Part shown: positions 7,584-60,560 of the stretch, one piece after another
Layout of the letters: each line of letters begins with the position of its first letter
Position numbering within the stretch: position 1 is the stretch's first letter
NCBI GenBank assembly: GCA_033964015.1
Contig: CM066922.1
Coordinates: 25,972,961 to 26,036,960, forward strand
From: Scolanthus callimorphus
Taxonomy: Eukaryota; Cnidaria; Anthozoa; Actiniaria; Edwardsiidae
DNA length: 64,000 bases
Direction of reading: 5' to 3'
Program-made: the position numbers and the translations under genes
The notes under the pieces: model-generated
Told to the model about the DNA's origin: nothing
What the model saw: the letters and a program-made list of their open reading frames with translations, nothing else
Databases searched by the model: none

Positions 7584-7616
7584 GGTAGGAAATGATCAGA
7601 TCAATGGTAAAGTGTC

Positions 7617-12451: not shown

Positions 12452-12485
<34 letters not shown>

Positions 12486-34812: not shown

Positions 34813-36480
34813 AGCCACCTTAAGGTGCTATCGGAACCGTTTTGGCAATTGAGGAACAAAAATAGCATTGTTCGGACCTGTGTTCCTATATGATGACAAC
34901 TAATTGGGAACAATTGGTCCTATATGATGACAACTAATTGGGAACAATTGGTCCGAATTTTTAGATAGGAACAGTTCACACAGGAACTATTGTTCCTATT
35001 AAGTAAAAAGGAACGCAGTCGAAAGGAACAATTGGTTCCTTTTAACTTTAACAGGTCCTTTTGTTCCGTTTATTAGTCAATTGGTTCCTTTCACATCTTA
35101 AGGAAAGGAACAACAGGGCCTTTCTATGCAATAATAGGTCTTTTCGCTGTTAAAAGGAAAGAAATAAAAAACGCGCGGAACACTAGCGCTTTGAAAAACT
35201 TGTCAGTTTTCATGTCGCGTCAGTTTAAAAGTAAATATCGAATTATTGACTACTTACTAACCGAAAGTGAGGGCATTACGTGAAATATCAAACTGAGGTT
35301 TTGGCGTATCGACCGAGCGATAGCGAGGTTGATACGCCAAAACCGAGGTTTGATATTTTACGTAATGCCCGAACGGTCGAGGTTAGTAAGTTGTTTATTA
35401 TATGGCACTTTTCTACAAACTTTTTACGAACCGGAAGTCGCCTCGTTCATTTTCCCGCCGAAATAACTCAGACACGCGCCCGCGTCGCTCGAGTTCATTC
35501 AGAGTATTTCATTCTCTGAGTCAAACTGATAGAACACCCGTGTGTGCAAACCACGCCAGACTTGATCTATGTAATCAATCTCTTATGGATGTCAAATACT
35601 TCGGAATCCTTTCTTTTACATTTTATAATGCTGTTTAGTCATTTGTGAGAAACTTTTGAGTAGTTACAGAAGTTTCAAACGGCAAGCAACCGGGAAGCAA
35701 GTCTTCGACGTCAGCTCAAATTATTTTAGCACCATTGGGGAAAGCATTGCTCATTACAAAAGGCCTTTAATAAGTACGGAAGAAGAGTTAACCTGAAGAA
35801 GATACTTCACAAGCTATCCTCCAAATTGCATGGTTATTTTAGCCGGCTTTTGTGCAAAAGCAAACGTCAAGTAAGAATGAATTTAACTCGAGTAGATGAA
35901 GAGAGAAAAGAAATGAGCGACTTGACTATCGGTAAGCACAAACTTTGAACTCGCTTTCTGTTATTATTTTTAGCTCTCGAGTATCTTGAATTCCCATTAA
36001 ATTTTGACTTTACAGTAGCTTTTATCTTTTGTTGCTATTTTGACTCCCTTCATTTTCTCGCTCGAATTTCTTACAGTAACTTTTTTGGCTCTGTTTGCTT
36101 TTGTAAACAGGTCATTTCTGATATTCAGGCCATTATTTTCGTCTTGTCACAAGTTAGATCTGGTGTTATACTGTGTCATGTATTCCTTGTGAATTTCGCT
36201 GAAAATCTTTTTGAATTTGTGTTATTTAAAGGAGATGAATGCTTGTCAGTCCGTGAACTGGGAGCGGGCATTAAGAATTTCCATAATGCCCGTGGGCATT
36301 ACGGAGAGTTACGCCCGCTCGTTAGCCAATCAGAGCGCGCGTACTATCGTTGCCATATAATAAGGTAGTCATAATCAGGTCCAAATTCAAAGTTGGAAAT
36401 TTTTATGGCGATAAAGAGAGTAATTTAGGTCCACTTATAAGCTATCATCACTTATGGGGAATAACAATAACAATAACAAT
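34813..36480. repeat. Repeat rich in 'ggaacaattggttcc', split by a 1.1 kb insertion
   Basis: 34,813-35,246 plus 36,364-36,480 together match 53,783-54,290, which is continuous. The intervening 35,247-36,363 is therefore an insertion. It contains a ~120-bp palindrome (35,266-35,385) and inverted 'ttattatatggca' motifs at 35,391-35,403 and 36,351-36,363. No target duplication could be fixed. Confidence 0.65.
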
Positions 36481-38208
36481 AACAATAATAATTGGCGTGT
36501 TGACTTGGACTTTTCCTGAAATATAAGCCTTTTCCGAATTCTAAAGATGCAGGGATATGTGCCTAAGCCCAATTAGTACCAATACGTCTCAAAAAGTCAA
36601 ACAATACAATATTGAGAAGTGTTATGTCGCCAAAAGGACCTAAAAATGCCAATTTTTAAATCGGCATAAGTGCCCCCCTGACATCGGAACGCAAAACTAA
36701 AAGCATTGCTAGACACTACTGATCAAGGCCTATCAGCTGTCCAAGTTTCGTTGAGATCGGATGAAGTAAACATTGTTATCTCATGGTTAGGGTTTAGACC
36801 CTCATAAAGGTGTATACCCTACTAAGACTTGAGATTTTTCTGAAATAAAGGATTTTCAGAATTTTGATTGAATATTTCAAAGCCTTCCCTTTGTCGTAGT
36901 GCGATGAAACTTTCAGGTGATGATCGCTTCGTGAAGGGCTACAAGATGACATGTCGTTTGTTGCGAAATATGCGCATGCGCAAGAGTGCCATGACACCCG
37001 CTTGGGTCTGTTTGGCAACTTTTTTTCAATGTCAAATTTCAAAGTCAAAAAGTCATAAAACTTTCAGTTTATTACTTGAAATATATACATATTTGGGCGC
37101 TCTATCAAATGACGTTTTATTTGTTTGAATTCATTTATTCGTTAGTTAGTTACAATTGGGCCGATATTTCAAATGTTGCCAGATGGACGTAAAATTGGCA
37201 ACTTTGTGGTCTCTTAAAAATTTGCTTTTCAATATTTTTTAGAACTTAGTACATCGTTGCATTGACCGTTAAAAGTTGTGTTTTGAAAGTTACAAGGACC
37301 ATGATATACTCAGAAGTTTGGTCGGAAATGGCTCATGGAGATTTTTTCTTAAAGTGGCTATAACCAATCATATTTTGAAGATAAAGCAGAGGAACTTGGT
37401 ACACCTTTAGAAAGTCTCAAATGCTTTGATCATGCAAAATACCGCGTCGTTTGTAAAAGTATTCCACCAGATATGATTTTTTGAATTTCCGATGTTCGGA
37501 CGTTGTTGCCGCGGCAACAATGAATAATCAGCGGTCAATTTTTATTTTGATGAGTTCAATATGATAAGTTGAATATCGCTATGTAATTCAAATACGTCTC
37601 ATGTATTTTCCCAAATGTATAGATAATTTTAAGTTGGTTGCCATGGGAACTTCGATGACGTCACAAAATAAATTTCATTTTTGAAATGCTTACATCGAAA
37701 GCTTTTATTCTGTTTTATATTATGCGGCCTTAAAACGATGTCTTCATTGAGAAATTTGAGGTTAAATATTTTTCTGGACGATGTTCAGAGGCCTAAAACT
37801 TCGCGAATATTTTATCAATTTTTTTACTCCTTGGCATGATAGTAGACTGGAAGGTAAGGTTTGTTTTTGTTATAGAATGTATTATCATATCTTTCTTTCT
37901 ATTTGATGTAGAGCTCTTCGAAATCCGGGTTTCAGGTCAGGTTACCATGGCAACCACTGTTGCTATAGAAACGATCCTTTTAAGAAGACAAATAGCTGCC
38001 ATTGATTCAAACTAGACAAGCTTGAACGGTTCCTGGAGATTTTTGGTGCAGTTATGTCAGGCTTAGCCTAACCCTAACTAACCATATAATTACTGTATGC
38101 TGCCCACCTACATCAGCCAATCCTATTTTCTGGCAGATATAGATTGTACTGGCAGATATAGACTTCACTGAGCGCCTCTGTGAAATCGTGGATACCCTTT
38201 GGTCGTAT
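36481..38208. other. No gene recognised
   Basis: AT-rich sequence; opposing short frames at 36,794-37,128 overlap one another and have no recognisable domain. Confidence 0.4.
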
Positions 38209-43800: not shown

Positions 43801-44045
43801 ATGCGAAACTGTCGAAGTTTTGATAAAATTTAAGCAAATTAAAGGGCACTTCCGGTTTCAGCCTCGTTTTCATGTAGCACGCATAGAGCCTCTCCGCCAA
43901 AAGCTGCAAAACGGAGTGTTGCCGTGCTGGGATTTTTTGGGACTTTTAGTATGTTCTTTTAGACGTTAATTCTAGCAGGTTTCTGAAGAGAAAGCTTTTG
44001 TGGGAATTAGTTCCAGGTCCAACCATAAAATGCCTGGACTATAAG
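40890..44045. repeat. Diverged inverted repeat pair enclosing ~2.9 kb
   Basis: About 40,900-41,050 and 43,900-44,045 are imperfect inverted copies sharing 'cctggaactaattcccacaaaag' and 'gtccca.aaaatccca.cacggcaac'. This may be two independent insertions or the ends of an old element. The interior shows no recognisable gene, only short frames (for example 43,143-43,478 minus) and a GC-richer patch at about 42,500-42,760 with 'gttcaca' and 'gcgcgat' motifs. Confidence 0.45.
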
Positions 44046-44585
44046 TTGTTGATGATTGAAGAACGACGAGGGTCATACAGAAATCACTAAAATATCGCGT
44101 CGACACGTCAAGTTATAAGTTCCTCCATTCTAATGGACTCCGTTGTTGAGGTTTTTGCTATTCATTTTCCTAATTTGAAATTGAGGTCTGCTTGGCAGCA
44201 ACGACAGAGTCTGGTTGGCAACAAGTGAATCAGGACCAGATGAAAAACAGGACTATATTCTAAAGCTGCGTAGATCTCTCCAATTTGACTTTACAAAATT
44301 TCTAGCACCTCCTTAGGCATGACCATAGATATAATGATTCGTTGGTGAAACAGCTTTTAGGGGTGCAAATTTTTTTTTTCTCTTAAATTATGTCCCTTTG
44401 TCAACTTTTGGATCCATATAGAAAGGCTCATATCACCCAAAATTCAAGTGCTACTTCAGCGAAAAGCCACATGTGGTTACTCCATACGGTCCTCTACAAC
44501 ATTGCCATATGTCACTTTTTAATCTGTGCAACAGTTTGAAAGTTATCCAGAGTTAAAAGTCTGACTTCACTTCACATTAAGTTCG

Positions 44586-44736
44586 CTTGGCAACTTTTAG
44601 GGCCCTTTGGCAACGCGTGGCGTCCACTTGGCAACCACTGGGTCCGTTTGGCAATTTTCAGGTCCGATTGGCAATTTTCAGGTCCGATTGTCAACAATTT
44701 GCGTCCGAGTGGCAACAAATTGCGTCCAAATGTCAA
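44586..44736. repeat. Short-unit array with TTGGCAAC core
   Basis: About eight units of ~20 bp with 'tggcaac' or 'tggcaatttt' and 'ggtccg'. TTGGC is the NF-I half-site, but function is unknown. It abuts the hexanucleotide microsatellite. Confidence 0.55.
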
Positions 44737-44740
44737 CACG

Positions 44741-44964
44741 ACAATAACAATAACAATAACAATAACAATAACAATAACAATAACAATAACAATAACAATA
44801 ACAATAACAATAACAATAACAATAACAATAACAATAACAATAACAATAACAATAACAATAACAATAACAATAACAATAACAATAACAATAACAATAACAA
44901 TAACAATAACAATAACAATAACAATAACAATAACAATAACAATAACAATAACAATAACAATAAC
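44741..44964. repeat. (AATAAC)n microsatellite, 224 bp
   Basis: About 37 near-perfect copies of a hexanucleotide. The long poly-Asn, Ile-Thr or Ile-Val frames are artefacts. Shorter runs of the same hexamer end related repeats at 36,465-36,490 and 54,273-54,310. Confidence 0.95.
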
Positions 44965-45334
44965 CATTCCCCAAAAATGATGGACCTTTTTCTTTATTTG
45001 GTCGGTGATGACGCTCGACTAGCGTTCTTTGTAAAATGACTGCGACTTTATCTTGAACACACCTTCATGCATGTTTTGATCGAATATAGCATCAGTGGTA
45101 AATTTACTTTGGATGCTATAAGTGTTTTTAGTAGCACAGATGCCTGCAAATGTGGAACTGCGTAGAAAGGAACAAATGTTCCCATGTGTTCAGTTCCGAT
45201 AATAGCATGAGCTCCGTCTAACGCTTGGCTTTCAATGATTCAAAGTCGAACAGTTTCTGAAATACGTACTTAACAAATTTGTCACGACATGGCGGACATC
45301 AGGAAGCCAACAGCCCCCTTCAGTATTTCAGTTA

Positions 45335-46180
45335 ACTTACAGTTAATATAATTGTGAAGTAATTGTCTATAACTGCTATAACCGTTAAAACTGTCATATC
45401 GTCATGGAAGCAATAGAACTTCTCTTGGGATAAAACGGTTATAGCGGTTATAGCAGTTATGAGGGTACCACCCCTCCCCTTCAATATTTCAATGAACTTG
45501 CAGTTAATATGATTGGGAAGTAATTGTCTATAACTGCTATAACTGTTAAAACAGTCATATCGTCATGGAAGCAATAGAACTTCTCTTGGGATAAAACGGT
45601 TATAGCGGTTATAGCGGTTATAGCAGTTATGGCAGTTCTGAGGGTACCCCCTCCCCCCAATATTTCAATATTCAATAACAAACTTACAGTTATTATAATT
45701 ATTTATATTAAATAGATAAGTTTATAAATTAAATATTAATAATGTATTTAATAACTATTAAAATTAATTATATATTAAATAGTTATTAACATTAATAAGT
45801 AATGAGTTCCCCCCCCCCCCCCCCCCCTCCTATTACAATCAATGAACTTACAATACAAATTATTGGTAAGTAATTTCCCATAACCGCTATAACCGTAATA
45901 GCCGTTATATCCGTATTCTGCCCGAAAGGAAGTGAAGTTCTCTCGGGGTAAAACGGTTATAGTGGCTATTGCGGCTATGAGGGTACCACCCCACCCCTCC
46001 AATATTTCAATGAACTTACAGTTAAATTAATTGGTAAGTAATTTTACATAACCGCTATAACCGCCAAAACTGTCATATCCGTATACCTTGGAAAACATTA
46101 AAGTTTTCTTGAGGTAGAACGGTAATAGCGGTTATGGCGGATATAATGACTACCACCCCTCCCCTTCAATATTCCAATGA
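45335..46180. repeat. Tandem repeat of ~130-160-bp units, each with a hairpin
   Basis: Four to five units carry 'taactgctataaccgtt' followed by its inverted partner 'acggttatagcggttat', then 'gagggtacca' and a C-rich stretch with 'caatatttcaatgaactt'. Unit 3 is separated by AT-rich sequence and a poly-C run near 45,810. Confidence 0.75.
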
Positions 46181-46319
46181 ACTTATGTCTGTGCAGCAAT
46201 AGAGCTATAAGGGTCATTCCTTTAGTATAACTAACTATTATATTGCAATTGAACATTCAACGCATTTCTTTCACACACAAAAATGAGCAGCCAGACGTGT
46301 TTTACAGTGTTATAATTCT

Positions 46320-46745
46320 ATGAAAATACCGACAGAGCCAGCCACTTTGGTTTACCTGTAAGAGTGTGTTCAATGAACGAGTCGACAAATTTGTAGACAA
46401 GTTCACCAGACTTTTTCGTGTTTCATTCAAGCAAAACTTCGATGGCAATGCCGTTTCACAAAACAACAATGTATTGTTTTGGGATGCATGTACACTTCTA
46501 TGAAGAAATACCAGGATTTTGTTACATTTCTATGAAAGATTCCAACGATTTGTTTACCTGTAAGGGATGTTTGGACAAAATTCATTTCAATGAACGAGTC
46601 GACCATAAATTCCTTCTTTATGTGATTGCGTAAGCACGGTCACCAGGGATTTTATGAATGCTTTAGTCCATCAAAGTTCGATGGCAATGCCGGTGTTAAA
46701 AACCAACAAAGTGTTGTTTTGAGGCGTACATTCCTTTGCCGACGC
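46320..46745 (+). repeat. Diverged tandem duplication upstream of the helicase gene
   Basis: Two units of about 215 bp share 'gtttacctgtaag', 'ttcaatgaacgagtcgac' and 'tcgatggcaatgcc'. They sit immediately before the proposed promoter and first exon of the helicase gene and may be upstream regulatory sequence. Confidence 0.5.
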
Positions 46746-46748
46746 TAA

Positions 46749-46757
46749 CATAAAAGT
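46749..46757 (+). promoter_or_regulatory. Weak TATA-like box of the helicase gene
   Basis: CATAAAAG lies about 55 bp before the donor site that ends the proposed 5' non-coding exon at 46,812. Confidence 0.3.
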
Positions 46758-47134
46758 TCCGCAACCGCTAGCGTTAACTGTCAGTCCAAGCAAGAAGTCG
46801 ACAGAGTGGCAGGTAAGAAGTTTAGCTACGTTTGCTCGTTTAAGTTCGGCTGTTTATCTCATTTCCCTTGATTTACGTCAAATTCAGAATTCTAACTCTA
46901 TACAACTACTTAAACAGACTCTCGTTTATCACAAAATCGTCGGTGAATAAAGCCATCAGTAGATTCAGAGAGGAAGTTTGTGTAATAATTTTGATCAACC
47001 GAGCATCGCCTAGTCTAGTGAAGAACCAAACGTTTTCAAGAGCTTTCATCAGATAATCTGGTTCTGAAATTGAAGTGCGAATAACTACAAAATCCGATCC
47101 ACTAAAATCAAATTTACCATTTATGTTTTTCAGA

Positions 47135-50100
47135 ATGCCAGCAACGACTCCTTCACGACTGTTAACGAAAACAGCGATACGAGACAAACTTTTGGCAGAT
47201 GTCATACCAGTAGTGGAACGCACTTGCTCTATTATTGGAGTAAAATGTAATTGGAGGGTCCAAGGTGGTTTGCAAGGAATCCGCTCGGCGTGGAGAGAAA
47301 TAGTTAAGAAGCGTAATGAGTGTGATGTGGTTATACAGAAGACACCAGGCGTGGCTTTTTTCTTTTCGGCCATTTCTACATTCACCACGACAAAGGATAG
47401 CAAGGATGACAAGGAAGGCCACACCGAGGAGGACGAGGAAGGCGGTGAAGATAATGATCAAGCTTCAATTGATGCTCCGACCCAATTATCTCAGGTACAT
47501 TGCGTGAAACTTGATTCATTGTAAGTAAGTATGTGACCAAACAGAGGGCACGCGTTGCCGAATTAGCCGATTGGGCACTTTTAATACACCATTTTTACGA
47601 TTGAGTGCATCGCCATTGTTCTCATCCGTTGTTACAAGCCTCAAGCGACAACATTTTAGATGGCACAATAAAAGTAGTAGTATTTTTCCAGACAAAGGCT
47701 CTACCAATCATTAATGTAACAATTGGTTTACCATAAGCGAAACTCCATTTTTGCACCTTGGTGACCCAGAAATGGTACACTCAATCGTTAAATTATCAAA
47801 GAGCATGCGCATTTTTGACGTTCTGTTTTTCGTGTAACCCCTTCTTTTGTTTTCTACTATAGTCCTCGGGAATCGCTCAAGCGGCTCAACAAAAATTACA
47901 CCCCTCTATAACTTACTGGGTTGCAATACAATCACAGAACGGCATGCCCGTTTCTGCACTAGTTCTTCATAGAAGACTCGTTAAATGCGAAGTAGAAGTG
48001 AATTCCACTAGAGCGTCCAAGAAGAAAGGGGACGAACGACTTCAGAAGCTATGTCAGGAGGTAAAGGATCATAAGAACGCGCTGATGTCTTCACTTGTGA
48101 AAGAGTCTTTCAGTAACTATTGGGAAGAATTAACAGAATATTTAGAACTTGGAACTCTTCCCGTCACTCAATGCGACAACGTCGTGCGACTCGTTGTGCT
48201 ATCTAAAGAATTCGCTACCAAGTTGCGTCCAGCATTACGATCCCTGCGAGAAGTTGGACTGGTGTTTGATGTTTTCAGCCCTCACCAATTAGACGAGGAG
48301 ACAAGTGACAGCCCTCCAGCAAAGGAGCTTGCACAGCCATTGAAAGTTTTGTGCAATGACGTTGAACGTATATTGACCAAGTTACACTATGCATACAGAG
48401 GTGGTCAGGTGTACAAGAAGTCCACAGGAGCGCAATTCACCTACCAAAGAATGTGTACAGTTGGATCATTTTTGCATTCATTGCTAGGCAACCCAGACTT
48501 CAAGGACCGACTGATGAATCACATGCCACGTTTGAAAGCCCTTCTAGAAAACGAGGACTGCCAAGCCATCACCCAGCTTCAAATCGACAAAGATCTAGTT
48601 GAAGTAAATGATGGATGGTTTTGGTCATTCCAAAAAAGGGATTTCGTTCATGGTACGCTGAAGGAATCTGACGTTGGACAAATATCACCACGAGCATTCG
48701 TCAAGTATGACCATGGCCAAGATGACGTAGATGCGGGATACTTTGCTGGTATTCTGCGAAACAGTTTGTCCCCAGACCAAATCGAAATGTTCTGCCAGGA
48801 CTTCCTTCTGTTGTTCGAGAAGAGAAGACATCACAAGCAAAAGGTCCCCTGTCTTGTGGGCCCTTCAAACAGTGGGAAGACATCACTCTTCCTGGCAACG
48901 TGCCAAATAATAGAACAAAGCAAGGTTGCAAGGATCACAAAACAGAAGGCCTTCAACAAGGCTATGATCAAGAAAGACACCGAATTGATAAACGTTGATG
49001 AGGCAACCGAAACCTTGATGAGCATTGATGACTGGAAAGTGATAACACAAGGCGGTTGGACGGCCCACGACCGAAAATGGAAGACCGCAGAAGGATTTCA
49101 GAACGATGCGCCGATGTTCATCACATGCCAAAAAGAGCTCGACTTCAAGAGTCCAGAAGACAACGAGGCAATGAAAAACCGTCTGAACATCTACATGTTC
49201 CAATCACTACCAGAAGTAAATACTCGAGCTGCCAAGTGGATCAAGACGCATCCTATGGAGATAATTGTCTGGTGTGCAAGACAAAGCAGACGTCCACTTG
49301 ATAGCGACGTAAGTTGACTCAAAACACTGTTATAATCGGTTCTTTGTTAAGACCCCGTCCACAATGATTAATGTTTCAGCAAGTTCAGAGTTTTTTAATT
49401 TTCAAAGCACTCAAAACAGACTCTTACTTCTCTCCGTTTCTTTGTTAAACACTGACTATTCCTCTTTTATAGGATGAGGAAGTAGCACAACATGACAACG
49501 AAGGCGCAGTGCCGAAAGACGACCTTGAAAACATTCTGGCGGTGCGACTAGACGATGAAGAGGCGTCGCCGGGCGAGTCTGATAATGAAGACCAGTCAGT
49601 GAATGAACAGACAAGCAGTGAAGACGAGGGTTTGGACTGTTCATACGATGATCAGATCACTGATCTCAACAGGTATCCCAGTAGTGAGATAGTAAAGATA
49701 CCTTATGTGGAAACATGCTAATATTTTCTGTTCTTCTCTGTCGACAGGGCTAAAGACGAGTGTGAAGATAACGCAAAAGTAAGAATGATAGAATGGATGG
49801 TGGAGGAGGTGAAGAAGAAACGACGAGTCCTACGACTTGATGCCAGAGAAGGGCGAATAGCGTTGCGGGAGCGAGAGATAGATAACCTGAGGAGACATGG
49901 TGTTGGGGAAGAGTTGCTGCTTCTTCTTCCAAGTCAACCAGGGGACCCAGTACCGACGCCTCTTCAACAGGAGATCGAGGAGGCGCAAGCTGAACATCGC
50001 CGGAAAAAGAAAGACGAAGAAAAAAGGCTGCTCCAAGCACAGGCAGAGCGCTTCTACGAAGACGAGTGGGTAATCGCAAAGGAGAAGGAAATGCTGAATT

Positions 50101-50540
50101 TGCGTAAACAAGAAGTGAATGCCAAAGATGAAGATACCAAGCGTGCTTTGTCCTATATGGCGAGCGTTGCACGAGACGCGCTAAGATTGCGCGTTCTCGG
50201 ATTGGAGGTACCTGCAACTGCAAAAAATTGTTTCAACGAGAAGATGCTTGCGGAGAGACGAAAGGCCGTAGTGAAGCTTGGTCTTATCAAGGCTAGTCAA
50301 GTAGCGGTTATATCCCATCCCTGGGAACCACTTCCCTTCACAATCGGCGAAGAATGCGAAGGCAATGAGATCATCCTGACGACTCCTATGTCTCAATCAA
50401 GGCCAAGCACTAGTGGTACTTCATCTCAGAGGTTTCTCATTCATCGCACGCCAAAACGACGAGCAAGTCAGAAAAGCGCCACTCCTTCCGTGCCAAAAAG
50501 AGGGCGTATTACTCATTTCTTCCCTCCAAGTCAGCAGTGA
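47135..50540 (+). CDS. Superfamily 3 helicase (E1/NS1/Rep-like), 932 aa, five exons
   Basis: A non-coding first exon ending at 46,812 (AG|GTAAGA) joins coding exons 47,135-47,494, 47,863-49,308, 49,473-49,672 and 49,748-50,540; all junctions are GT-AG and keep frame. Exon 3 has the SF3 set: Walker A 'GPSNSGKTS' (about 48,859), Walker B 'ELINVDEAT', B'-like 'KVITQGGWTAHDRKWK', sensor 'PMFITCQKELDF' and an Arg-finger-like 'NRL'. SF3 helicases are the replicative initiators of papilloma-, polyoma- and parvoviruses and some mobile elements. No HUH nuclease motif is seen N-terminally. The C-terminal part is acidic, then coiled-coil-like and charged, ending 'RGRITHFFPP', which resembles a PCNA-binding box without the Gln. 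No disruption was found, unlike the Polinton. It could be part of a mobile element, a virus relic or a domesticated gene. Confidence 0.85.
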
Positions 50541-51089
50541 TTGAACACATTTTGCCCGAACAACCCGATACAGTGTGTAGATTTTCGTTAAATTTCTCGT
50601 AATAAGTCGCACGTGTGTTTATTTATTATTATTTATTATTTACTATTAATTTCTTAGGATGAACCAGAAACGAAAGGGCCTAACGTAAGAGCGCATTACA
50701 AATTTCTTTTCGAAAACTTGCTAGGTGGTCAGTCTGTAATAATGAGTTAAATCGATATTGATGTATTTCAAAAACGAGTTAAACAATGTAGATCGTCTTT
50801 CATTAAAATTATAAGGAATGAGAAATATGATCGGGTTTGCAATTAATAAAGTTTATTGATGTAAGTAGTAGCTTGCAAGGGCCTCCAGTTAATGCATTGC
50901 TATATGTTTATTTGAATTACCAGGCGAAAGAAATCTACAATGACAATAAAATCACGAGCATTTAAAAAACATCACCGTCTGTTGTTATGATCTTGGAATG
51001 CCGTTTATGTTATTGCTATCATTACTAAATCATCTGAACTATCCATTGCTTCGTGATCTCGTTGTAATTCATGCTACAACACACAAATC
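50541..51089. other. Convergent 3' region with poly(A) signals on both strands
   Basis: AATAAA at about 50,843 on the plus strand could end the helicase transcript; several TTTATT (AATAAA on the minus strand) around 50,605-50,640 and 50,907 could end the leftward transcripts. Near 50,880 a 15-base block ('aactggaggcccttg' on the minus strand) repeats the end of the cyclin-like frame. Confidence 0.5.
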
Positions 51090-51473
51090 TCATTGTTCCA
51101 AAATATGGCGGTGCTCCAAGGGCCTCCAGTTCAGCGACTGCAAAACATTTAGTTCTTCCTCGATAATGTCTTCCCTTTTGACTGGCGGCGAGATGATATC
51201 CATAAATATGCTGTTTCCTTTCGTGTCGCTGTCTTCTAACTTAATTGCTATAAACAGGCAAGCGAGAATGAGCTTCCTTAGGCTGGACTTTTTTCTGTGC
51301 GACGTTCTATTGAGATGGCGCCATAACAGACTTTCCGCCAATATGGCCGTTGACTTGGGATAGTTACACGTACACATATCTTCAAAAAACATCCAGGCAA
51401 ATTCGATATCCTTCTGAGATAGTTCAGGGTGTTTTTCTGTGAGTCTGTCCATCCTAGCTCGAAGGCGCTGCAT
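51090..51473 (-). CDS. Short cyclin-box protein (127 aa)
   Basis: The frame starts with ATG at 51,473 and reads through helices typical of a cyclin N-terminal box: 'AESLLWRHLN', 'LRKLILACLFIAIKLED', an acidic/charged segment, then 'EELNVLQSLNWRPLEH' (the conserved E..VL..L.W signature). At 127 residues it has one box only. Cyclins activate CDKs; a box next to a viral-type helicase suggests pushing host cells into a replication-competent state, but that is inference. It may have an upstream exon, since a 'cag' acceptor-like site lies at its start. It is in the same orientation as, and just downstream of, the recombinase gene. Confidence 0.65.
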   Translation of the reverse strand: MQRLRARMDRLTEKHPELSQKDIEFAWMFFEDMCTCNYPKSTAILAESLLWRHLNRTSHRKKSSLRKLILACLFIAIKLEDSDTKGNSIFMDIISPPVKREDIIEEELNVLQSLNWRPLEHRHILEQ

Positions 51474-51617
51474 CAGGTAAAGAGGTTGGACCGGACTGCG
51501 TCACCTCATTTTGTAGTACAGCAATATACCCAGCGATCTTTGAGGGCTTGCGAACGTTTTCAATTGGTTCCCAATACCGTCCCCATGACAACAAATTGGT
51601 TCCTAACATACCTAAAA

Positions 51618-53381
51618 TTACTTTGTGGAGAATGACGGAAATCTTCGCGCTGCACGACTTAGCAAGGAGTTGGCTGTCCTCCCTTTTTGGAAATGAAGTT
51701 CGGGGTCCTTGAGGATAGCTTTCCATTGACCAAACCCATACCTCTTAAGTCCAGCCTTAAGATATTTGTCCTCTTCGGGGGTAAACATGACATTCTTCCG
51801 TCTCGTGGAGCTTAACAAGGCTTTCCCTTTTAATGCATTTTCGCGCTTGAGATTTGGCGTACAAGCGGGGAGTTCAGGGGGCAGAACTTCCTTGATTGTT
51901 TCGACCTCGTCAGTAGAAGAGCTGTCTGCTTTCTCGTCTTGCTCTTGGGAGGATGCACTAGACTTGTCAGAGAGCCGTGCGCGCACGTCGTTTTCAAGCT
52001 CTGAACCCTTGTCACCTTGCAATTCTTTGATAAACATGTGCGCCCTTGTCGCAACGTCGCGCGATCTTTGTTTTTGGTAGTGTACCCTGGCCACAACAGA
52101 AGTGTGTTTTTGGTCTTCCGATATGGTGCTTTGGGCACTGCTGTCCAGAGTTCTCGAGCTTGCGGTCTCGACGATCTGTCGATAGCGGGTGGGATGAACG
52201 TATTTGCCGGTCGCGTCAAACACCAACTTGCTCATTAATTCTCCAAGTTTGCTGTGCTGGCCTCCATTTCTTGTCACGAGGACGTAATCACATGTTGGCT
52301 TTAATTGCGGCCGAATATGGGTGATGAATCCTTCAAGCACTTGCATGTTTGTGTCGGTTAAATAAATAGAGTCAAACCCATATTTTCCTGCAGTCTTAAA
52401 CATTTTCTGGTCAATAAATCCACCGTTTGTCTTGGCTTTTGTGACCATGTCAACAGTCAAATACTGATACGTCATTGGGCGAGAACCTTTAACTTTGATA
52501 AACAAATACAGCGCGAGGAATTTCGTGGCAAATGATAAATCTAGCGGCGATGCTGCGTGTGGACGTTCCTTACAGGTTTTAAGCACATTCTCGTAGCGCG
52601 ACAAATAATGACCAACTGCTTCCAAGAGCTCCTCTAATGTTGCCCAATGTCCCTTAGCTTCTAGTGCGTCTATATCGAGGTCGCTAGTGCACTGAATGCG
52701 CATCATTTTAGAAACTGTTCTGCGTACCTTTTTCAAGTAGACTTCCGTGGTAGAAAAATTACTTAGCACCTTTGCCGACGCTCCGTTTACCTTTCTAAAA
52801 TCTATAAGTTCTGCAATTGCGTCGATGTACCCCACCCGCCCAGCATGCCCAAGCTTCCATTCATCCTGAAGCACGTCAATAAACTTAAAAAGCAGATTAG
52901 GAGAGCACAAACTGAAGTCTATTATCTCAAATGTTAGGTCTTCTTCGTCTTCGCAGCAAAATTTCAAGAACTTCAAGCACCTGCTAACTATTTGCCGAGC
53001 TTGGCGATCACTTTTACAGCCACCTCCAGTGCCAGTTAGCCACGAAAAAACTTGCTGAGCAATTTCACTTGAAATGTCAAACGTAGGCATTGATCTCAAA
53101 TTACGCGCAGAGTTTCCAGCAGCTTCACGTTTTACAGAGGTACTCACATTCTCTTTAGCAAGGTTGATATCAGGCTTTTCGTCAAAGTAATAAAACCAAA
53201 GATGCTTTTTCTTTACGTGTTTTCTGCATCCTCGCTGTGTGGCGAATCCATCGTGTTTGCATTCTTGAACTGGACAGTGAAAAAGGCCATCCACTTCGTC
53301 TTCCTCTAGGTGAAGTCTTTTAGGCTTGAGCGAAGCATTCGGTAATTTCGACCAGTTAATTACCTCTCCTCGTTTGCTCAT
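51618..53381 (-). CDS. Tyrosine-recombinase-like protein with C2H2 finger and Myb/SANT domain (587 aa)
   Basis: Single open frame from ATG at 53,381. Residues 36-60 form a C2H2 finger (C-x4-C-x13-H-x4-H). Residues about 110-450 resemble a tyrosine recombinase: helical core-binding part, then candidate catalytic residues R301 ('GSRPMTYQYLT'), a Lys near 329-333, H396-x-x-R399 ('HPTRYR'), H426 and Y435 ('QKHTSVVARVHYQ'), the R-K-H-R-H-Y order of phage integrases and Cryptons. A Ser/Glu-rich linker leads to a Myb/SANT domain at about 532-583 ('FTPEEDKYLKAGLKRYGFGQW'), like telobox-type DNA-binding modules. It would cut and rejoin DNA through a Tyr-linked intermediate. It could instead be a domesticated transcription factor. 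Confidence 0.7.
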   Translation of the reverse strand: MSKRGEVINWSKLPNASLKPKRLHLEEDEVDGLFHCPVQECKHDGFATQRGCRKHVKKKHLWFYYFDEKPDINLAKENVSTSVKREAAGNSARNLRSMPTFDISSEIAQQVFSWLTGTGGGCKSDRQARQIVSRCLKFLKFCCEDEEDLTFEIIDFSLCSPNLLFKFIDVLQDEWKLGHAGRVGYIDAIAELIDFRKVNGASAKVLSNFSTTEVYLKKVRRTVSKMMRIQCTSDLDIDALEAKGHWATLEELLEAVGHYLSRYENVLKTCKERPHAASPLDLSFATKFLALYLFIKVKGSRPMTYQYLTVDMVTKAKTNGGFIDQKMFKTAGKYGFDSIYLTDTNMQVLEGFITHIRPQLKPTCDYVLVTRNGGQHSKLGELMSKLVFDATGKYVHPTRYRQIVETASSRTLDSSAQSTISEDQKHTSVVARVHYQKQRSRDVATRAHMFIKELQGDKGSELENDVRARLSDKSSASSQEQDEKADSSSTDEVETIKEVLPPELPACTPNLKRENALKGKALLSSTRRKNVMFTPEEDKYLKAGLKRYGFGQWKAILKDPELHFQKGRTANSLLSRAARRFPSFSTK

Positions 53382-53431
53382 CTCACTCAGAAGTCAAGAC
53401 TAAAACGATTGAATCTCCAAACGACGCTATC

Positions 53432-53439
53432 GTTTTATA
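53432..53439 (-). promoter_or_regulatory. TATA box of the recombinase gene
   Basis: Read on the minus strand it is TATAAAAC, about 50 bp upstream of the ATG at 53,381, leaving a very short 5' leader. Confidence 0.6.
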
Positions 53440-53782
53440 CCACTTTTTGTTCCCAGGAGACGTATTTTTGAGCTAGCGAATCATAGCTCTTTGTGGTCAT
53501 ATCTGCCCAAACATGCCCTTTTGACAATACCCAAGAGAGTTAAACAAGCCCAGACACGAAATGTCGTTGAAAAGAAGACGTGACACTTTGCTTGGGCGTG
53601 TCAGAAAATGACAATTAAACATGCCCAGACTTATTCTTACTTGTTAACACAAGCTAGTTAATATGCAAGTTTATAGACGTGCCTTCAATATTAGACAAAA
53701 CTCGCATTGTTTTTTTTAGAAGACTTACCCTGTTAAAAAGGAACAATGCGTTCCCTTTTATAGTTAAACGAATCGTTCCTTT

Positions 53783-54310
53783 AAGGTGCTAATCGGAACC
53801 GTTTGGGCAATTGAGGAACGAAAATAGCATTGTTCGGACCTGGTGTTCCTATATGACAACTAATTGGGAACAATTGGTCCGAATTTTTGGATCGGGCCAG
53901 TTCACACAGGAACTATTGTTCCTATTAAGTAAAAAGGAACGCAGTCGAAAGGAACGATTGGTTCCTTTTAACTTTAAAAGGTCCTTTTGTTCCGTTTATT
54001 AGTCAATTGGTTCCTTTCACATCTTAAGGAAAAGAACAACAGGGCCTTTCTATGCAATTTTAAATAGGTCTTTTCGCTGTTAAAAGGAATGAAATCAAAA
54101 ACGCGCGGAACACTAGCGCTTTGAAAAACTTGTCAGTTTTCATGTCGCGTCAGTTTAAAAGCAAATATCGAATTATGGTAGTCATAATCAGGTCCAAATT
54201 CAAAGACAGAAATTTTTATGGCGATAAAGAGAATTTAGGTCCACTTATAAGCTGTCATCACTTTTGGGGAATGGCAATAACAATAACAATAACAATAACA
54301 ATAACAATAA
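53783..54310. repeat. 'ggaacaattggttcc' repeat, uninterrupted copy, ending in (CAATAA)n
   Basis: Matches 34,813-35,246 joined to 36,364-36,480 and shows the empty site of the 35.2-36.4 kb insertion. It ends with a run of CAATAA hexamers, which suggests a retroposon tail. Confidence 0.65.
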
Positions 54311-54400
54311 TGAAATAATGTTGGAATATCCACATAGTGGCTCTTCATCAAACATTAGTTGGCCTGCTAGCCGGCGTTTGTCATTGTTTTAACGGCGAAA

Positions 54401-54511
54401 ATACCTGGAGTTTGTTGTTCTCCGGCTGGCCTCGTTTTAAAACTCGTGCCAGGTAGACCGCGCGTACAGAAATCCAAGATGGCGCCTCGAACAACAAACT
54501 CCAGGTATATT
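54401..54511. repeat. Hairpin with 'ataCCTGGAGTTTGTTGTTC' arms
   Basis: The left arm (about 54,401-54,421) is matched by its complement at about 54,491-54,511. Short MITE-like element. Confidence 0.5.
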
Positions 54512-54574
54512 AAATATGCTAGCCATATAACGATTGAAAGGTTAAAACTAAGTTGATACTTAATCAATTTTATT

Positions 54575-55559
54575 TATCTATATATTAATACCGTAAGGAA
54601 AATCGTGTCGACACTCGCTCCACTCAGCCCTGAAGCTGTGCCGCCAAAAGAAGTTCGCAAACCCGAAGGGAAGGTGGAAATCTGGACCATGGGCGTGTTT
54701 TTGTTGGAAAAGATTCATCTCGGGCTAAGTTTTAATACAAGCGATTTCTTAAGCGAGGGACAAAGCCGCCATCACAGCCATGTTGAATTCTCCCACAGAA
54801 ACTAAAAAAGAACTCGGTTCGCGCAGCCGAAAGCACATTGACATTCAAACCTAAATGGTTCTCTTACAGATTACATACAGGAATGTGCAGGGATAACTCT
54901 AACTGGAAAGATTTGAGCTGAGAAAAATTTTCATTCAAGTTTCAACAAACGTACTACCTTTCTTCCCTCGGAGCACGCGCTAAGTCATGCAAGTCGAAAT
55001 GACACATTTACAAAACAAAGTCCGTGAAAGTCATGAATAATATTCTCTAAGTATAAATCCTGACGGCTCTCTCGCAAAACGAAGGACACAATCCCGAAGA
55101 GAAGAAATCCCTCAGTGGGCATGTTTTTGTCGGAAAAAATTCACTTTGGGCGAAGTTCTAATTCAAAAACATATAAATAAGATAAACTAAAAACAAAATA
55201 TTATTCCATAAAACATTTTTACTTGACCTGTTTCTTCTCTCCCCTCGCTGAGATATTATAAACATACAAGCAATTCCGAAGTCAAATTGCGCTTTCGATT
55301 TTCACGGGTTCTTTGACCGATTTGAGAGACGGACACATGCGTGATTTTTTCGCACCAATCAGGGAGACCAGTGCAAAAAAAAAAATCCTTTTGGGCTCAC
55401 TTCATTTATTTCGGCATGGTGGGACGGGGTACTCATGCTGATGGGAGGTTATTAGTAATGTAAATCCAGCAGTTTAGGAAGGGGGAAATAATGAACCCCT
55501 TCCCACATCCATATGGCCATTTTCCCCCTTACACTCCGTGAATTTTTCACGGGCATCAG
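54575..55559 (-). repeat. Dispersed ~1.1 kb repeat, copy 3, inverted
   Basis: Reverse-orientation copy of 28,107-29,155, also continuous across the Polinton target (55,016-55,021). The protein-like frame is open on the plus strand here (54,605-54,805). Confidence 0.8.
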
Positions 55560-56700
55560 GTAGTAGATATAAAAATTATAAATAAAAATGTAAAACTATA
55601 AATTCTTTCTCAGATAGGCAGTGACTTCACGGGAGACAGGGTTGAAGTTAAATTGCGAATATTAGCTGGTAGGCCTTTTAAAAAGTTTAGCTACACTATC
55701 TTGAAAAGTGTCTTGAAGTTAAATTGCGAATATTAGCTGGTAGGCTTTTAAAACGTTTAGCTTGGACGGTGCGGACGTGTTTTCTTCAGTTCCTACAAGA
55801 ATCTCTAGGGCTCTTAAAATATTGGCGTAAACCTTTCAAGGATTACTTCAGGACAACGCTTAAAGACCAGTGGCCAGAGGTTTGATATTTATTGAGCTTG
55901 AATGCGCTTTCGAATTAACTGTCTCAAGTTTGTAAATTCGTTCGATCTTGAGAACCGAAGCGCCTCTTGAACTAAAACACTTTTTATCACCTTATCTCTG
56001 CACTTTTATTTGCTGTTGTATTAACTCAATCATCTGATCTCCTTGTGGGCTTTCCTTAGATTAAACTCAGCCGAATTTAACCTATTTTAGTAAACCATAA
56101 TTAAAAGCTGTTTTAAATTTTCCGCCATTCTGATCCGTTCTTTATTTCCTACTTGTCGTCACAAGAAGTGAACCGATTTCTGAAGGTGTCTCTACTAGTT
56201 TCGTTTTTCCTGTTAGTTAAACTTGCGCGCTTAATTATTTCCTCTCTTTTTGTCTGGTCTCCTATGCCTTGATATCTATTCGTATCATAGACTTTCTGTT
56301 CTTTTCGTCGGGTAAAATAAATAAATTTCTTTTGCCAGCTAATTACTTATTCAGTTTTGAGCTGGTCATTCAACCCTAAACTTTACTGAAGCGTATTTGC
56401 ATAAGTTTGATCACGCTCTCGCTGTCACACTTTATTGATCCTTATTTGCATAAGTCACGCTCTCGCTGTCACACAATCCTGTCTCTTGGTCTGAAGACCA
56501 GTGAACTTTTTTCTTTTTTCTTTTATAGAAAACATTTTTTTCATTGAATAACACAAAATTCACTTTCGATTAAACAACATGTAACCTATAACATCACTTT
56601 TAACTATCAATTCAATATTTATACAACACTGAAAGGTTAAGGGGAAGTTAAAGGGAATAAAAGAAGGGAGTAAAGAGAGAACAGGGGAAACGTTAAAAGG
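55560..56700. other. No gene; small local duplications
   Basis: A ~70-bp tandem duplication ('gttaaattgcgaatattagctgg' at about 55,645 and 55,715) and a second pair ('cacgctctcgctgtcacac' near 56,411 and 56,456). Part of this may be the 5' region of the LINE that follows. Confidence 0.4.
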
Positions 56701-57490: not shown

Positions 57491-58793
57491 ATAATAATAA
57501 TAATAATAATAATTGTTTAATAAAGCCATATCGCAGCAATTGCTGAATTACGAGGCCGGTCAGAAAACTAATTACAATATCGATATTACATAAGTATAAA
57601 TATTATGGTACTGAAATGCTATTTACAGTTGGCTCTGATATTTGATCGTACATAGATTTCCGAATCTGTTTGTTTTAGCCGTCACAGGTACAGTGGCGGA
57701 CGAACCTGATCTCAGAGTATATGGCCTTTCGTGTGACACTTGTTGAACTAAGCTGCCCAGCAGAGGGGAGGAGGAGCGGGATCGCCTAAGAAATTTAATA
57801 CATGCATCCTCTCTCCTCTGCTGTAGCGTCTTTAGGTCTGCTTGTGCGAGCGCATCCTCATACCGCAAATGAGGAGAAATGATCTTCAGCGCCCTTTTTT
57901 GCACCGATTCTATATGGTCACTCAGATACTGAGTGAGGCCAGCCCAGGCGGGGCACGCATATTCTAAGACAGACCTAATGACGCTGCAGAAAACAAGAAT
58001 TAACTGGTTATTCGATAACCCACACTTCTTAAGTGCACGTAGTGCATACAAGCGTTTGCTGCCTTTCTTAACAATATGTATGACATGCTCGTTCCATGTA
58101 AGATTATCCGACAAATAAACGCCTAGCACTTTGTAGCAAGAGACCTTTTCAATCAGGGAATTACCAACCAGAAGAGGGGCTGGTGGAAAAGGGGAGTACT
58201 GTAGAAAACTAATACACATTTCTTTGCATTTTTTACTGTTAAGCACCATGCCCCTAGAGGAGGCAAAGGTGTAGATATCCGAAACAGTAAAATTCAGGTA
58301 CGAAGGAGAAAGCCTGGGGACAAACTCCATGACAGTTGCGTCATCTACATATTTGATTCTATTAACACAGTTCGACGCCATTTTGTTCACAAGGATGCAA
58401 AATAGTAGAGGAGCCAATTTTGTCCCCTGGGGAGTTCCCCCATTCAGAGTTATAGGCTGGGAAAGGACTGCGCCTACCCTCACTCTCTGGTTTCTGCCGG
58501 TAAGAAAGGCAGCAATCCATCTGACCAAATGTGGTTCCACATCTAGGTCCTCAAGCTCACGCAGCAAGACGTTATGATCCACAAGATCGAAACCCTTGGT
58601 GAAGTCTGAGAAAAATATTCTGGCATACATCTCACCAGAATCAATAGTCTCCAAAATAGTGTGCAGCAAGTATACCAGAGCTTGCGTCGTGGATCTTCCT
58701 GGAAGAGCAAATTGCTTGATGTCGAGCTTGTCCCATACTCCTCTGAGAAGAGATTCAGCAGAAAAACCCTCAAGTACTTTAGCCAAAGGCGAA
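57491..58793 (-). mobile_element. LINE B, 5'-truncated, inserted in LINE A
   Basis: Flanked by GTCTT on both sides (57,486-57,490 and 58,794-58,798). On its own strand it ends with an (ATT)n tail, visible as 'ataataataat' from 57,491, typical of CR1/L2-type 3' ends. The 5' end is cut in the reverse transcriptase region. Confidence 0.8.
57623..58786 (-). CDS. Reverse transcriptase fragment of LINE B (~387 aa)
   Basis: The frame shows non-LTR reverse transcriptase blocks: 'FSDFTKGFDLVDH', 'GGTPQGTKLAPLLF', the catalytic 'YVDDATV', then 'LNSKKCKEM' and 'LEYACPAWAGLTQYL'. It is open to a stop at 57,623 but has no true start because the element is 5' truncated (the first codon is TTG). The YVDD variant and C-terminal part fit the CR1/L2 group. 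Confidence 0.88.
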   Translation of the reverse strand: MAKVLEGFSAESLLRGVWDKLDIKQFALPGRSTTQALVYLLHTILETIDSGEMYARIFFSDFTKGFDLVDHNVLLRELEDLDVEPHLVRWIAAFLTGRNQRVRVGAVLSQPITLNGGTPQGTKLAPLLFCILVNKMASNCVNRIKYVDDATVMEFVPRLSPSYLNFTVSDIYTFASSRGMVLNSKKCKEMCISFLQYSPFPPAPLLVGNSLIEKVSCYKVLGVYLSDNLTWNEHVIHIVKKGSKRLYALRALKKCGLSNNQLILVFCSVIRSVLEYACPAWAGLTQYLSDHIESVQKRALKIISPHLRYEDALAQADLKTLQQRREDACIKFLRRSRSSSPLLGSLVQQVSHERPYTLRSGSSATVPVTAKTNRFGNLCTIKYQSQL

Positions 58794-58818
58794 GTCTTCC
58801 ACCTTTGACGAACTCCTG

Positions 58819-59881
58819 ATGCTACTTAATGACTATCCTTTTGACGTTGTCACCTTATCGAAGACATGGCTACGAGACAATCCTCTGTTGCTACAGCACG
58901 TCTCCATTCCTGGTTTCACTGCCACCTACCGAAACCGTTTGCAACACAAAGGAGGTGGAGTGGGTGCATACATCCGAGACAGTCTTCAGTTTAAGAGACG
59001 CACTGATATCGAGCGGCTCCAGCCCGATTTCGAACATTTGTGGCTTGAGTTTCCTGGTCGAAACAAAAACAGCAAACTACTTGTTGGTGTAGTTTACAGA
59101 TCAGGGTTGATCATGGGAAAACAGGACTGGCTTGGTAAATTTGATGATCTCCTATCAAATGTTGTATCACCTTGGGATGGCTTACTTGTTCTAACTGGTG
59201 ATGTCAATATAAACTTGCTCGATTCAAGTGATAGTACTGTCAATCAGTACAGAGACATCTTGGATGGACTAAATCTAACCAACCATGTAACAAAGCCCAC
59301 TAGGGTAACTAGAACATCTAAATCTTTAATTGACCACTTGATTTCAAACTCCCCATCCAGGATTTCTCAAACGGATGTTATTCCGTGTCCATCCATTGGT
59401 GACCATGACGCGCCGTATGCTACTATCAATGTACGTGTCACCAGATTTCTCCCGCGTTACAAATTTATACGTAATGAGAAAACTTTGGACATTGACTCTT
59501 ATAAAGAGGATTTTTCAACCCTTCCTTTTCAAGTTATCTATGGTGTCGAAACTCCTGATGATATGGTTGACCTAACGAACTCACTCATAACAGAGTGTAT
59601 TGATAGGCACGCCCCACTTAGGAGAGTCAAAGTCACTCGCCCCCCTGCCCCTTGGCTAGCAGACCCGGATATTCGTGAGCTTCAGTCCCAGCGAAACGAT
59701 CTACGCAAAGAAGTGCACGACACTAAAGATCCTCTTGTTTGGGAGTCTTTTCGAAACGCACGGAACAAGCTTAAAATATCGATCCGGAGGGTTAAAAAGG
59801 CATTCTTTGAGAAAGCTTTCTCTTCGAAGCGGCCAAAAGAGATCTGGCGAACAATCCATCGTGTTCTACACCCATTATTTA
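58819..59881 (+). pseudogene. LINE A apurinic/apyrimidinic-type endonuclease domain, truncated
   Basis: After the LINE B insertion the frame continues with endonuclease motifs: 'VVTLSKTWL', 'GGGVGAYIR', 'LTGDVNINLL', 'LIDHLIS' and 'GDHDAPYATI' (the SDH-like catalytic end). A basic linker up to 'EIWRTIHRVLHP' leads toward a reverse transcriptase that is missing. The frame runs on to 60,024 only because it enters the foldback element. Confidence 0.82.
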
Positions 59882-60560
59882 CCGAGGAAAGAAATCGTGA
59901 AAGCGCAATGAATTTATTACAAGAATGTCGCGTTAAAATTTGTTGTTATTACGTAGTATTTCTTGCTAAGATATATATAGACGTTAACCTTGTGGCAATG
60001 GTAAACCTTTGTAACCAAGTTTGACCATTATGTGTGCTTATTTGGTATAGAAGAAAATTACAAAGTTACGACATTCACCCTCTACTCTTGCACGCAGTTT
60101 TGAAGCTCTCTTTTTTATGAATGATAATGAAATCTGACGTTTTTCCAGGGGGAGCTCATTAGGCCAAATCTAATCAATAGCAGTCACGGTCCGAAAATAG
60201 CAATTGTCTGATTAAGTCCCTATGGAACATAAAGACTTGCTATGGTAAAAGCTTTCTTTGTTCGCTGATTAGAGTAGGCCTAAATGTGCTCCCCCTGGCG
60301 AAACGTCAGATTTCATTACCATTCACAAACAAGAGAGCTTCAAATCTGCGTGCAAGACTAGAGGGTGAATGTCGTAACTTTGTAATTTTCTTCTACACCA
60401 AACAAGCACATATAATGGTCAAATTTGGTTACTAAGTTTTACCAATGACACAAGCTTTTCGTCTATATAAATCTTAGCAAGAAATTATACGTAATAACGA
60501 CACATTTTAACGCGACATTCTTGTAATAAATTCATTGCGCTTTCACGATTTCTTTCCTCG
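59882..60560. mobile_element. Foldback element with ~280-bp inverted repeats, TTA target duplication
   Basis: About 59,882-60,160 is the reverse complement of about 60,280-60,560 with roughly 90% identity, leaving a ~120-bp centre. TTA borders both sides (59,879-59,881 and 60,561-60,563). It has no transposase and interrupts LINE A. Confidence 0.8.

Follow-up and report, generated by a model that had tools for sequence, protein, structure and literature searches.

A Crypton-like mobile element carrying an SF3 helicase, a cyclin-box protein and a predicted tyrosine recombinase in microsatellites of Scolanthus callimorphus

Results

Three open genes at one locus

The window, meaning the whole stretch of 64,000 nucleotides of Scolanthus callimorphus DNA that was analysed, was reported in a preliminary description to hold three intact genes, and all three proved to be present and open (Table 1). 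The leftmost, described as a spliced helicase gene of 932 residues, does consist of four exons separated by introns that are all GT-AG, with a coding sequence of 2799 nucleotides corresponding to 932 amino acids and a stop, as judged by a check of coordinates rather than by joining the exons. Its product (47135–50540) is clearly an SF3 helicase, with the fold assigned by structure comparison, and the Walker A motif GPSNSGKT and the Walker B motif are conserved in 19–20 of 22 aligned rows, with K339, T340, D379 and E380 kept in 20 of 22. The helicase exon of the window had no significant Pfam match, such matches coming only from its relatives, and a sequence profile search against solved structures returned no SF3 match. 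Motif C of SF3 helicases carries a sensor Asn; the likely position of this motif, placed without a structural alignment, is occupied by Gln in 17 of 19 letters. The more specific label of an E1/NS1-type helicase had to be dropped, as this type could not be separated from other SF3 helicases: Rep, NS1, E1, D5 and the SaPI5 primase-helicase all matched, with D5-type and SaPI5 primase-helicases ranking top in Foldseek, and with Rep, SaPI5 and NS1 tied slightly ahead of E1 and D5 in VIA-align.

Table 1. Features of the locus, with positions in the window
Feature	Position	Strand	Basis or remark
Left target repeat, (CAATAA)37 microsatellite	44741..44964		bare (CAATAA)34 at duplicate locus
Whole element, arm to arm	44965..54273		~9.31 kb; homology with other family A copies ends here; empty site
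Left 12-bp arm CATTCCCCAAAA	44965..44976	+	
Inverted 9-bp iterons CGGTTATAG and variants, candidate replication origin	45369..46137		
SF3 helicase exon 1	47135..47494	+	splice sites, frame; similar exon 1 with same splice position in second family (L064)
SF3 helicase exon 2 (helicase core)	47863..49308	+	
SF3 helicase exon 3	49473..49672	+	
SF3 helicase exon 4	49748..50540	+	ends in PIP-box-like RGRITHFF
Cyclin-box protein	51090..51473	-	first ATG 51473, true start uncertain; ORF 51090–51500
C2H2-tyrosine recombinase-Myb protein (predicted)	51618..53381	-	587 aa from first ATG; ORF 51618–53393
Right 12-bp arm TTTTGGGGAATG	54262..54273	+	
Right rest of target repeat, (CAATAA)6 microsatellite	54275..54310		

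The identification of a cyclin-box protein was upheld by a match to Pfam Cyclin_N (PF00134, E=3.6e-10; the score of 40.1 bits exceeds the cut-off, 23). Only the N-terminal box was seen, with no C-terminal cyclin box, and the closest solved structure was that of cyclin E1 (E=0.003). At least 150 cyclin matches occur in this genome, and purifying selection was seen on the genes of the element, that for the cyclin among them.

The third protein, previously described as a C2H2-tyrosine recombinase-Myb fusion, is a predicted tyrosine recombinase that bears out each part of this architecture to some degree. Its Myb domain was matched in Pfam (E=8.6e-7), the C2H2-like residues C40, C45, H59 and H64 are nearly invariant, and the R...K...HxxR...H/W...Y set is present, with K333, H400, R403 and Y439 found in 34/34 sequences and R305 and H430 in 33/34, each residue being presumed to play the role of its counterpart in Cre. 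A structure model of moderate quality has a moderate resemblance to the tyrosine recombinases Xer and Cre. A profile search of the recombinase against solved structures returned Myb/TRF chains only, and when 34 members of the recombinase family were compared with Pfam, 19 families were hit at E<=1, DUF3504 not among them. Searches of NCBIfam and PHROGs gave nothing above cut-off.

A mobile element bounded by inverted arms

The three genes are parts of one mobile element. This had been placed at 46749–53439, and the ends of homology between its copies extend it on both sides to 44965–54273, where inverted 12-bp arms, CATTCCCCAAAA and TTTTGGGGAATG, bound it within a (CAATAA)n microsatellite. The left end was recovered at 8/9 other family A loci, the exception being the 5'-truncated copy at C10, and the right end at 9/9. 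Counting only BLAST blocks of >300 bases and >95% identity, 10 other copies at nine loci are 97.8–99.35% identical to the element over their aligned parts, which are restricted to 48039–54274 in the C10 copy and 45845–54274 in the C58 copy, and are interrupted by internal gaps in the C2 copy and in one C1 copy. The microsatellites hosting the copies are of the TAA or TGA type. An empty site, which the preliminary description had proposed to look for, accompanies the common ends: elsewhere on this chromosome, a duplicate of the locus carries a bare (CAATAA)34 where the element would sit. A second empty site was looked for at C110 and not found.

Where copies lie head to tail in tandem, the junction reads TTTTGGGGAATG-8 bp-CATTCCCCAAAA. 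This 12-8-12 lox-like site occurs at 35 places, against 0 in the control, and matches the inverted-arm site expected of tyrosine recombinases, described in the relevant section of PMC3212892 as two inverted arms of 11–13 bp around 6–8 bp.

The proposed recurrence of helicase and recombinase as neighbours was also borne out in this genome, where 35 full helicase-cyclin-recombinase triples in fixed order lie on 16 contigs. A cyclin was found on the opposite strand within 7 kb of the helicase at 61/86 helicase loci, a recombinase on the opposite strand within 8 kb at 41/86, and a cyclin on the same strand within 3 kb of the recombinase at 68/74 recombinase loci, where chance would give 0.1–0.3 per pairing. 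These counts rest on best-candidate match lists within one genome, with the pieces of a single copy merged beforehand (107 helicase rows into 86 loci, 75 recombinase rows into 74). The contrary outcome envisaged earlier, of genes that never co-occur or are single-copy in fixed synteny, was not what this genome holds: the genes are multicopy and recur together, which rules out single-copy host genes in fixed synteny.

Outside this genome there are hints of co-occurrence only, in that helicase P0015 and recombinase P0131 lie on one Oculina record at a distance not given. In other cnidarians, helicase P0020 and recombinase P0133 come from contigs of equal length (4,856), possibly by coincidence, and P0158 and P0065 likewise (717,496), again with no distance; none of these pairs was taken as proof.

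Iterons near the left end

The surroundings of the genes had been taken for gene-free repeat DNA, yet what lies left of the helicase belongs to the element and forms an iteron region. Within the left 2.1 kb, CGGTTATAG has 9 exact copies, whereas none occurs elsewhere in the element or in the remainder of the window, and the top 9-mer reached at most 4 copies in 200 shuffles. In each of the two divergent families that were read, 9-bp-spaced inverted iterons lie close to the left end, in differing sequences; as no motif was common to the two, only the shared architecture was retained. On this sequence evidence, the iterons are candidate replication origins.

No capsid-size unspliced ORF is left over in 44965–54273. 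The largest leftover is of 183 aa, antisense to helicase exon 1 and without a Pfam match. Reverse transcriptase gave no match in the gene ORFs scanned, and the element holds no further unspliced ORF of >183 aa.

Discussion

We consider it probable that this 9.3-kb element moves as a circle through its own predicted recombinase and replicates by its own SF3 helicase, with the cyclin predicted to favour host DNA synthesis. The ends, the near-identical copies, the microsatellite location, the empty site, the three-gene order, the 12-8-12 junctions and the purifying selection were all observed; we infer the circles, the replication and the role of the cyclin. The most likely route is circular excision and replication, followed by recombination into a TAA/TGA-type microsatellite or an existing copy. 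Firstly, the recombinase would excise or resolve the element at the 12-bp arms, giving a circle with an arm-8 bp-arm junction. Secondly, the helicase would bind the left-end iterons, melt the DNA and recruit host polymerase, partly via its PIP-box-like tail on PCNA. Thirdly, the single cyclin-box protein would bind a host CDK, pushing the cell toward DNA synthesis. Fourthly, the recombinase would swap strands within the 8-bp spacer, the partner being either a microsatellite that matches it or the spacer of a copy already in place; exchange with such a copy would give rise to tandem arrays.

To our knowledge, it is not known how animal YR transposons gain copies, because their number is not raised by excision and integration alone. 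The presence beside the recombinase of a replicative helicase, candidate origin iterons and a cyclin offers a direct and testable answer, and circle-copying before insertion, if true, would explain the multiplication of one group of animal jumping genes. Integration also becomes testable in the tube, given the exact 12-8-12 site, the targeting of microsatellites and the near identity of the copies, with a recombinase targeting TAA-type repeats as a possible yield. The genetic elements known to carry a cyclin are mostly viruses, and this element would add a transposon to them. We lean, by a narrow margin, towards a broader view of such elements as capsid-free chromosomal plasmids of anthozoans: circular replicons with a family-specific iteron origin, a PCNA-tied SF3 initiator, a captured cyclin governing the cell cycle and a lox-type recombinase by which they lodge in microsatellites, the families swapping the recombinase half while keeping the initiator-origin pair.

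The preliminary description matched the gene set to no named family, whereas our preferred reading of the element is that of a Crypton-like transposon equipped with replication genes of its own. It is not filed as a wholly new kind because microsatellite-targeting YR transposons of cnidarians, CryptonV, have already been named, at least in the passages of PMC8869645 that mention them. These passages name microsatellites as the specific insertion sites of some CryptonV families, with reference to a report on cnidarian Cryptons that are specific for their target sites (Kapitonov & Jurka 2012, Repbase Rep. 12:2034). Host and target agree with the element, and the chance that it simply is CryptonV, with helicase and cyclin already recorded in Repbase, falls a little short of even; this bears on novelty, as the mechanism could be the same. 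However, the accessible text of the open PMC papers naming CryptonV makes no mention of helicase or cyclin, and no Crypton with both was found among open PMC papers by title and start of abstract. Nor was any such helicase-cyclin-recombinase element found described in open PMC papers, Repbase Reports and most subscription journals lying outside the search.

Of the earlier suggestion of a self-replicating, integrating element or endogenous virus, the multicopy mobile element stands and the virus is the less favoured reading. The Crypton-like reading is preferred because no capsid-size unspliced ORF is left over in 9.3 kb, and an endogenous DNA virus, or an episome of viral origin, its capsid genes lost or never carried here and its copies spread by re-infection, is improbable. 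The helicase fold is admittedly that of small DNA viruses and D5-type viruses, Polinton-like viruses pair S3H with a tyrosine recombinase (as summarised in PMC4642659), and a preprint (PMC11071296) reports sea anemones with many integrated copies of cressviruses that have an E1-like Rep. Yet the small antisense ORF is the largest unspliced one left over, IMG/VR yielded no relative by helicase or by recombinase, and the named relatives among the matches listed are all cnidarian (for the recombinase, the best 120 of 978), most hits carrying no name. A virus with a capsid was rejected on the first two of these grounds.

That the arrays and copies arose from host genes without transposition, through segmental duplication and through unequal crossing-over between microsatellites, is scarcely credible. 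Copies do sit in arrays, and also in microsatellites, where unequal exchange is promoted, and the empty site itself lies within a duplicated locus. Against this, the ends of copies on many contigs are exactly the same while their flanks differ, the arms at 35 junctions are separated by exactly 8 bp rather than by a long microsatellite, an element-free site exists, and the ends of two different families adjoin in one microsatellite at C6.

The Crypton-like element can be set beside several known systems. It resembles CryptonV, as far as the description in PMC8869645 allows comparison, in its cnidarian host, tyrosine recombinase and microsatellite insertion. The portions of PMC3212892 on Cryptons (CryptonA/I/F/S, Kojima & Jurka 2011) describe transposons likewise moved by a tyrosine recombinase, with a proposed circular intermediate and no terminal repeats found, the animal Cryptons encoding a YR only; relative to CryptonA and CryptonI as described there, the element adds 12-bp inverted arms, an SF3 helicase, a cyclin and iterons, and its recombinases differ from those of CryptonA in having no DUF3504 match. 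Polinton-like viruses and virophages also combine an SF3 helicase and a tyrosine recombinase in one integrating element (in the summary given by PMC4642659), whereas this element has no capsid-sized unspliced ORF, a length of 9.3 kb, and 12-bp arms with an 8-bp spacer. DIRS and Ngaro retrotransposons differ in that no reverse transcriptase lies beside the recombinase here, among unspliced ORFs. AAV Rep, parvovirus NS1 and papillomavirus E1 initiators share the SF3 helicase fold with this element, which also resembles them in having iteron-like sites near one end; in contrast, no nuclease or origin-binding domain was identified in this helicase, for which the SF3 subclasses were not told apart. 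Cre-lox and Flp-FRT replicons, of which the yeast 2-micron plasmid is an example, are circular, encode a tyrosine recombinase of their own and have inverted arms on either side of an 8-bp spacer. The element would work alike with different proteins in a different host, adding to this arrangement microsatellite integration, its own helicase and a cyclin.

A young, multicopy recombinase element with its own replication genes

The cluster is a genuine tyrosine recombinase (YR) element, young and multicopy, that carries its own replication genes. The helicase, cyclin and recombinase genes claimed in the preliminary description are all present, as judged from exon coordinates, Pfam matches and domain layout, and a coordinate check of the four helicase exons gives a coding sequence of 2799 bases, or 932 residues and a stop. 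The assignment as a tyrosine recombinase is carried by the catalytic residues together with the recombination site. Among the relatives listed, the named ones are Porites, Nematostella, Oculina, Actinostola and Desmophyllum, which makes an anthozoan the most likely host.

Coordinates of the element's genes and of other features in the window
Feature	Position	Strand	Remarks
SF3 helicase exons	47135-47494, 47863-49308, 49473-49672, 49748-50540	+	GT-AG introns
Cyclin-box ORF	51090-51500	-	Pfam Cyclin_N, 3.6e-10
Recombinase ORF	51618-53393	-	C2H2-like N-terminus, central recombinase part, C-terminal Myb domain
Open frame, 183 aa	46906-47457	-	Runs against the first helicase exon (antisense); no Pfam match; probably a chance frame
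Decayed right end of related element	34820-35246, 36361-36462		87% and 91% identity to 53781-54272; interrupted by ~1.1 kb of other DNA; terminates in (AATAAC)n at 36460-36492
Region preliminarily described as decayed Polinton	3940-13280		Five ORFs scanned: a weak match to an integrase (rve_3, E 0.0097) in one, chance-like matches only in another, no match in three
Non-LTR retrotransposon pieces	57623-60024		ORFs matching reverse transcriptase (PF00078, 7.1e-19) or resembling an endonuclease

Across the 597 Mb genome (302 contigs), in which the window occupies C12:25972961-26036960, there were at least 107 matches to helicase exon 2 (best 88 of 700 candidates scored) and, among the matches scored, at least 75 to the recombinase and 150 to the cyclin. 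The top six exon 2 matches, on six contigs, were 99-100% identical across the full exon, one containing a stop, with others falling into groups at ~65%, 58%, 51% and lower. Merging pieces of single copies left 86 helicase, 74 recombinase and 150 cyclin loci among the matches listed. The suggestion that helicase and recombinase might recur as neighbours elsewhere was borne out: on the opposite strand, 41 of the 86 helicase loci listed had a recombinase no more than 8 kb away and 61 had a cyclin no more than 7 kb away, and 68 of the 74 recombinase loci had a same-strand cyclin no more than 3 kb away, against a chance expectation for gene pairs at those distances of 0.1-0.3. The window-like order and orientation, helicase-cyclin-recombinase, occurred at 35 loci on 16 contigs among these matches, while no cyclin was listed within 7 kb of 25 of the helicase loci or within 3 kb of 6 of the recombinase loci.

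Common ends and insertion within microsatellites

The ends were found by comparing the window with the other copies of its own family, family A (nine loci holding ten copies, two being in tandem on contig C1), which are 97.8-99.35% identical to it over aligned blocks. Homology spans ~44965 to 54273, then breaks off at inverted ends, beginning CATTCCCCAAAA on the left and finishing TTTTGGGGAATG on the right. The left end is kept at eight of the nine loci, the C10 copy beginning only at 48039, and the right end at all nine, with the C6 version one T shorter. Microsatellites of varying kind, (CAATAA)n, (TAA)n, (GAATAA)n or (TGATAA)n, lie on at least one side at eight loci; the truncated C10 copy has scattered AATAAT units only.

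The same right end was present in 18 of 20 short stretches adjoining other recombinase copies (20 of 75 places), eight passing directly into the next copy's left end and ten into repeats of TAA, TGA or TATGAT type, of which two span only about three units. In the other two stretches (L053 and L059) the right end is replaced by a tandem GGTCTGATAGACCTGCCC-type repeat. Genome-wide, the right-end 19-mer occurs 138 times, and never in a reversed control.

The proposed search for empty sites, made with the two window-copy flanks joined, also succeeded, finding a second locus one megabase distant on the same chromosome. Its two sides align with window 44037-44945 (97.0% identity) and 54275-55977 (99.3%) around an uninterrupted (CAATAA)34, whereas the window has 37 CAATAA units, the element and 6 units. 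The full right 260-base flank is found at these two loci only, whereas the left 260 bases belong to a repeat present at more than 20 places. The bare locus may either never have been occupied or have been vacated, and under both histories the element inserted within the repeat. A second search of this kind, for C110, matched the two flanks only at separate places. Comparison shows both the element's mobility and its target.

Junctions between tandem copies

In tandem copies, an 8-bp spacer separates the arm of one copy from that of the next. A junction of the form TTTTGGGGAATG-N8-CATTCCCCAAAA is present at 35 places in the genome, with a listed recombinase within 3 kb of 20, and at none in the control. 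Read from the right end, the spacers are GTAATAAC, GTAATAAT, GCAATAAC, GTAACAAC, TATATGAT, TATATGAC, TATATCAC and TGTATGAC, of which the GNAANAA group matches TAA-type repeats and the TNTAT group those of TGA or TATGAT type. This layout fits that published for YRs, which typically bind two 11-13 bp inverted repeats, 6-8 bp apart (Kojima and Jurka, PMC3212892).

Strand exchange of a circle with a copy already in place, or a replicated multimer, would leave an exact 8-bp spacer; unequal crossing-over instead predicts long microsatellites between copies. We infer a circular form, a replication step and a role for the cyclin.

At C6:20904.8 kb (L023/L024), the ends of two families face across one TGATAA-type microsatellite with differing spacers, and the neighbouring family's recombinase is frameshifted. 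Right ends only ~2.04 kb apart in tandem arrays (C4:25766183 and 25768224; C4:25849570 and 25851618) suggest short, probably non-autonomous derivatives.

Exchange of modules and a candidate origin

The two halves of the element appear to have different histories. Between family A and family B (the C1:4.17 Mb array, L014), the recombinases are nearly identical (dS 0.07, dN 0.016), whereas the cyclins are near synonymous saturation (pS 0.77, pN 0.20), which argues for recent exchange of the right half. Similarly deep values separate family A's cyclin from that of a family at C6 (pS 0.96, pN 0.19), and its helicase from those of family D (pS 0.92, pN 0.23) and the 58% family (pS 0.86, pN 0.27), while the family D recombinase retains 97% protein identity to that of A. 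Purifying selection acts on the genes compared, and the recombinase half was swapped between old families far more recently than the divergence of the half with helicase and cyclin.

The window copy also carries inverted clusters of a 9-bp iteron, CGGTTATAG, and variants, ~0.4-1.2 kb from the left end. There are nine exact copies in this region and none elsewhere in the element or window; in 200 shuffles the most frequent 9-mer never exceeded four. In family D (L064 at C4:25.75 Mb; helicase identity 65%), inverted iterons lie at 0.3-1.15 kb and again follow a 9-bp step, but differ in sequence (AGACGGAT; top 9-mer six, against at most three in shuffles). These clusters, read in two families, are a candidate origin; co-evolution of helicase and origin would give such divergent iterons alongside a divergent initiator.

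Relation to known elements

IMG/VR scans with the helicase and recombinase found no relative. Integrated cressviruses with an E1-like Rep are described in sea anemones in a preprint on animal-virus gene exchange (PMC11071296), the consulted portions of which do not contain the word Crypton. Polinton-like viruses share with the element an S3H and a tyrosine recombinase, and are described as adding a common capsid and packaging module (PMC4642659); the ORF listing left no capsid- or packaging-sized unspliced frame in the element beyond its known genes. Animal Cryptons, as outlined in PMC3212892, encode a YR and are without terminal repeats, with CryptonA recombinases matching DUF3504; the YR is common to these and the element, but the other features listed there differ. 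Some CryptonV families are reported to insert specifically into microsatellites (PMC8869645, with reference to cnidarian Cryptons described in Repbase in 2012). The element, which agrees with them in host and target, very likely belongs to the same lineage.
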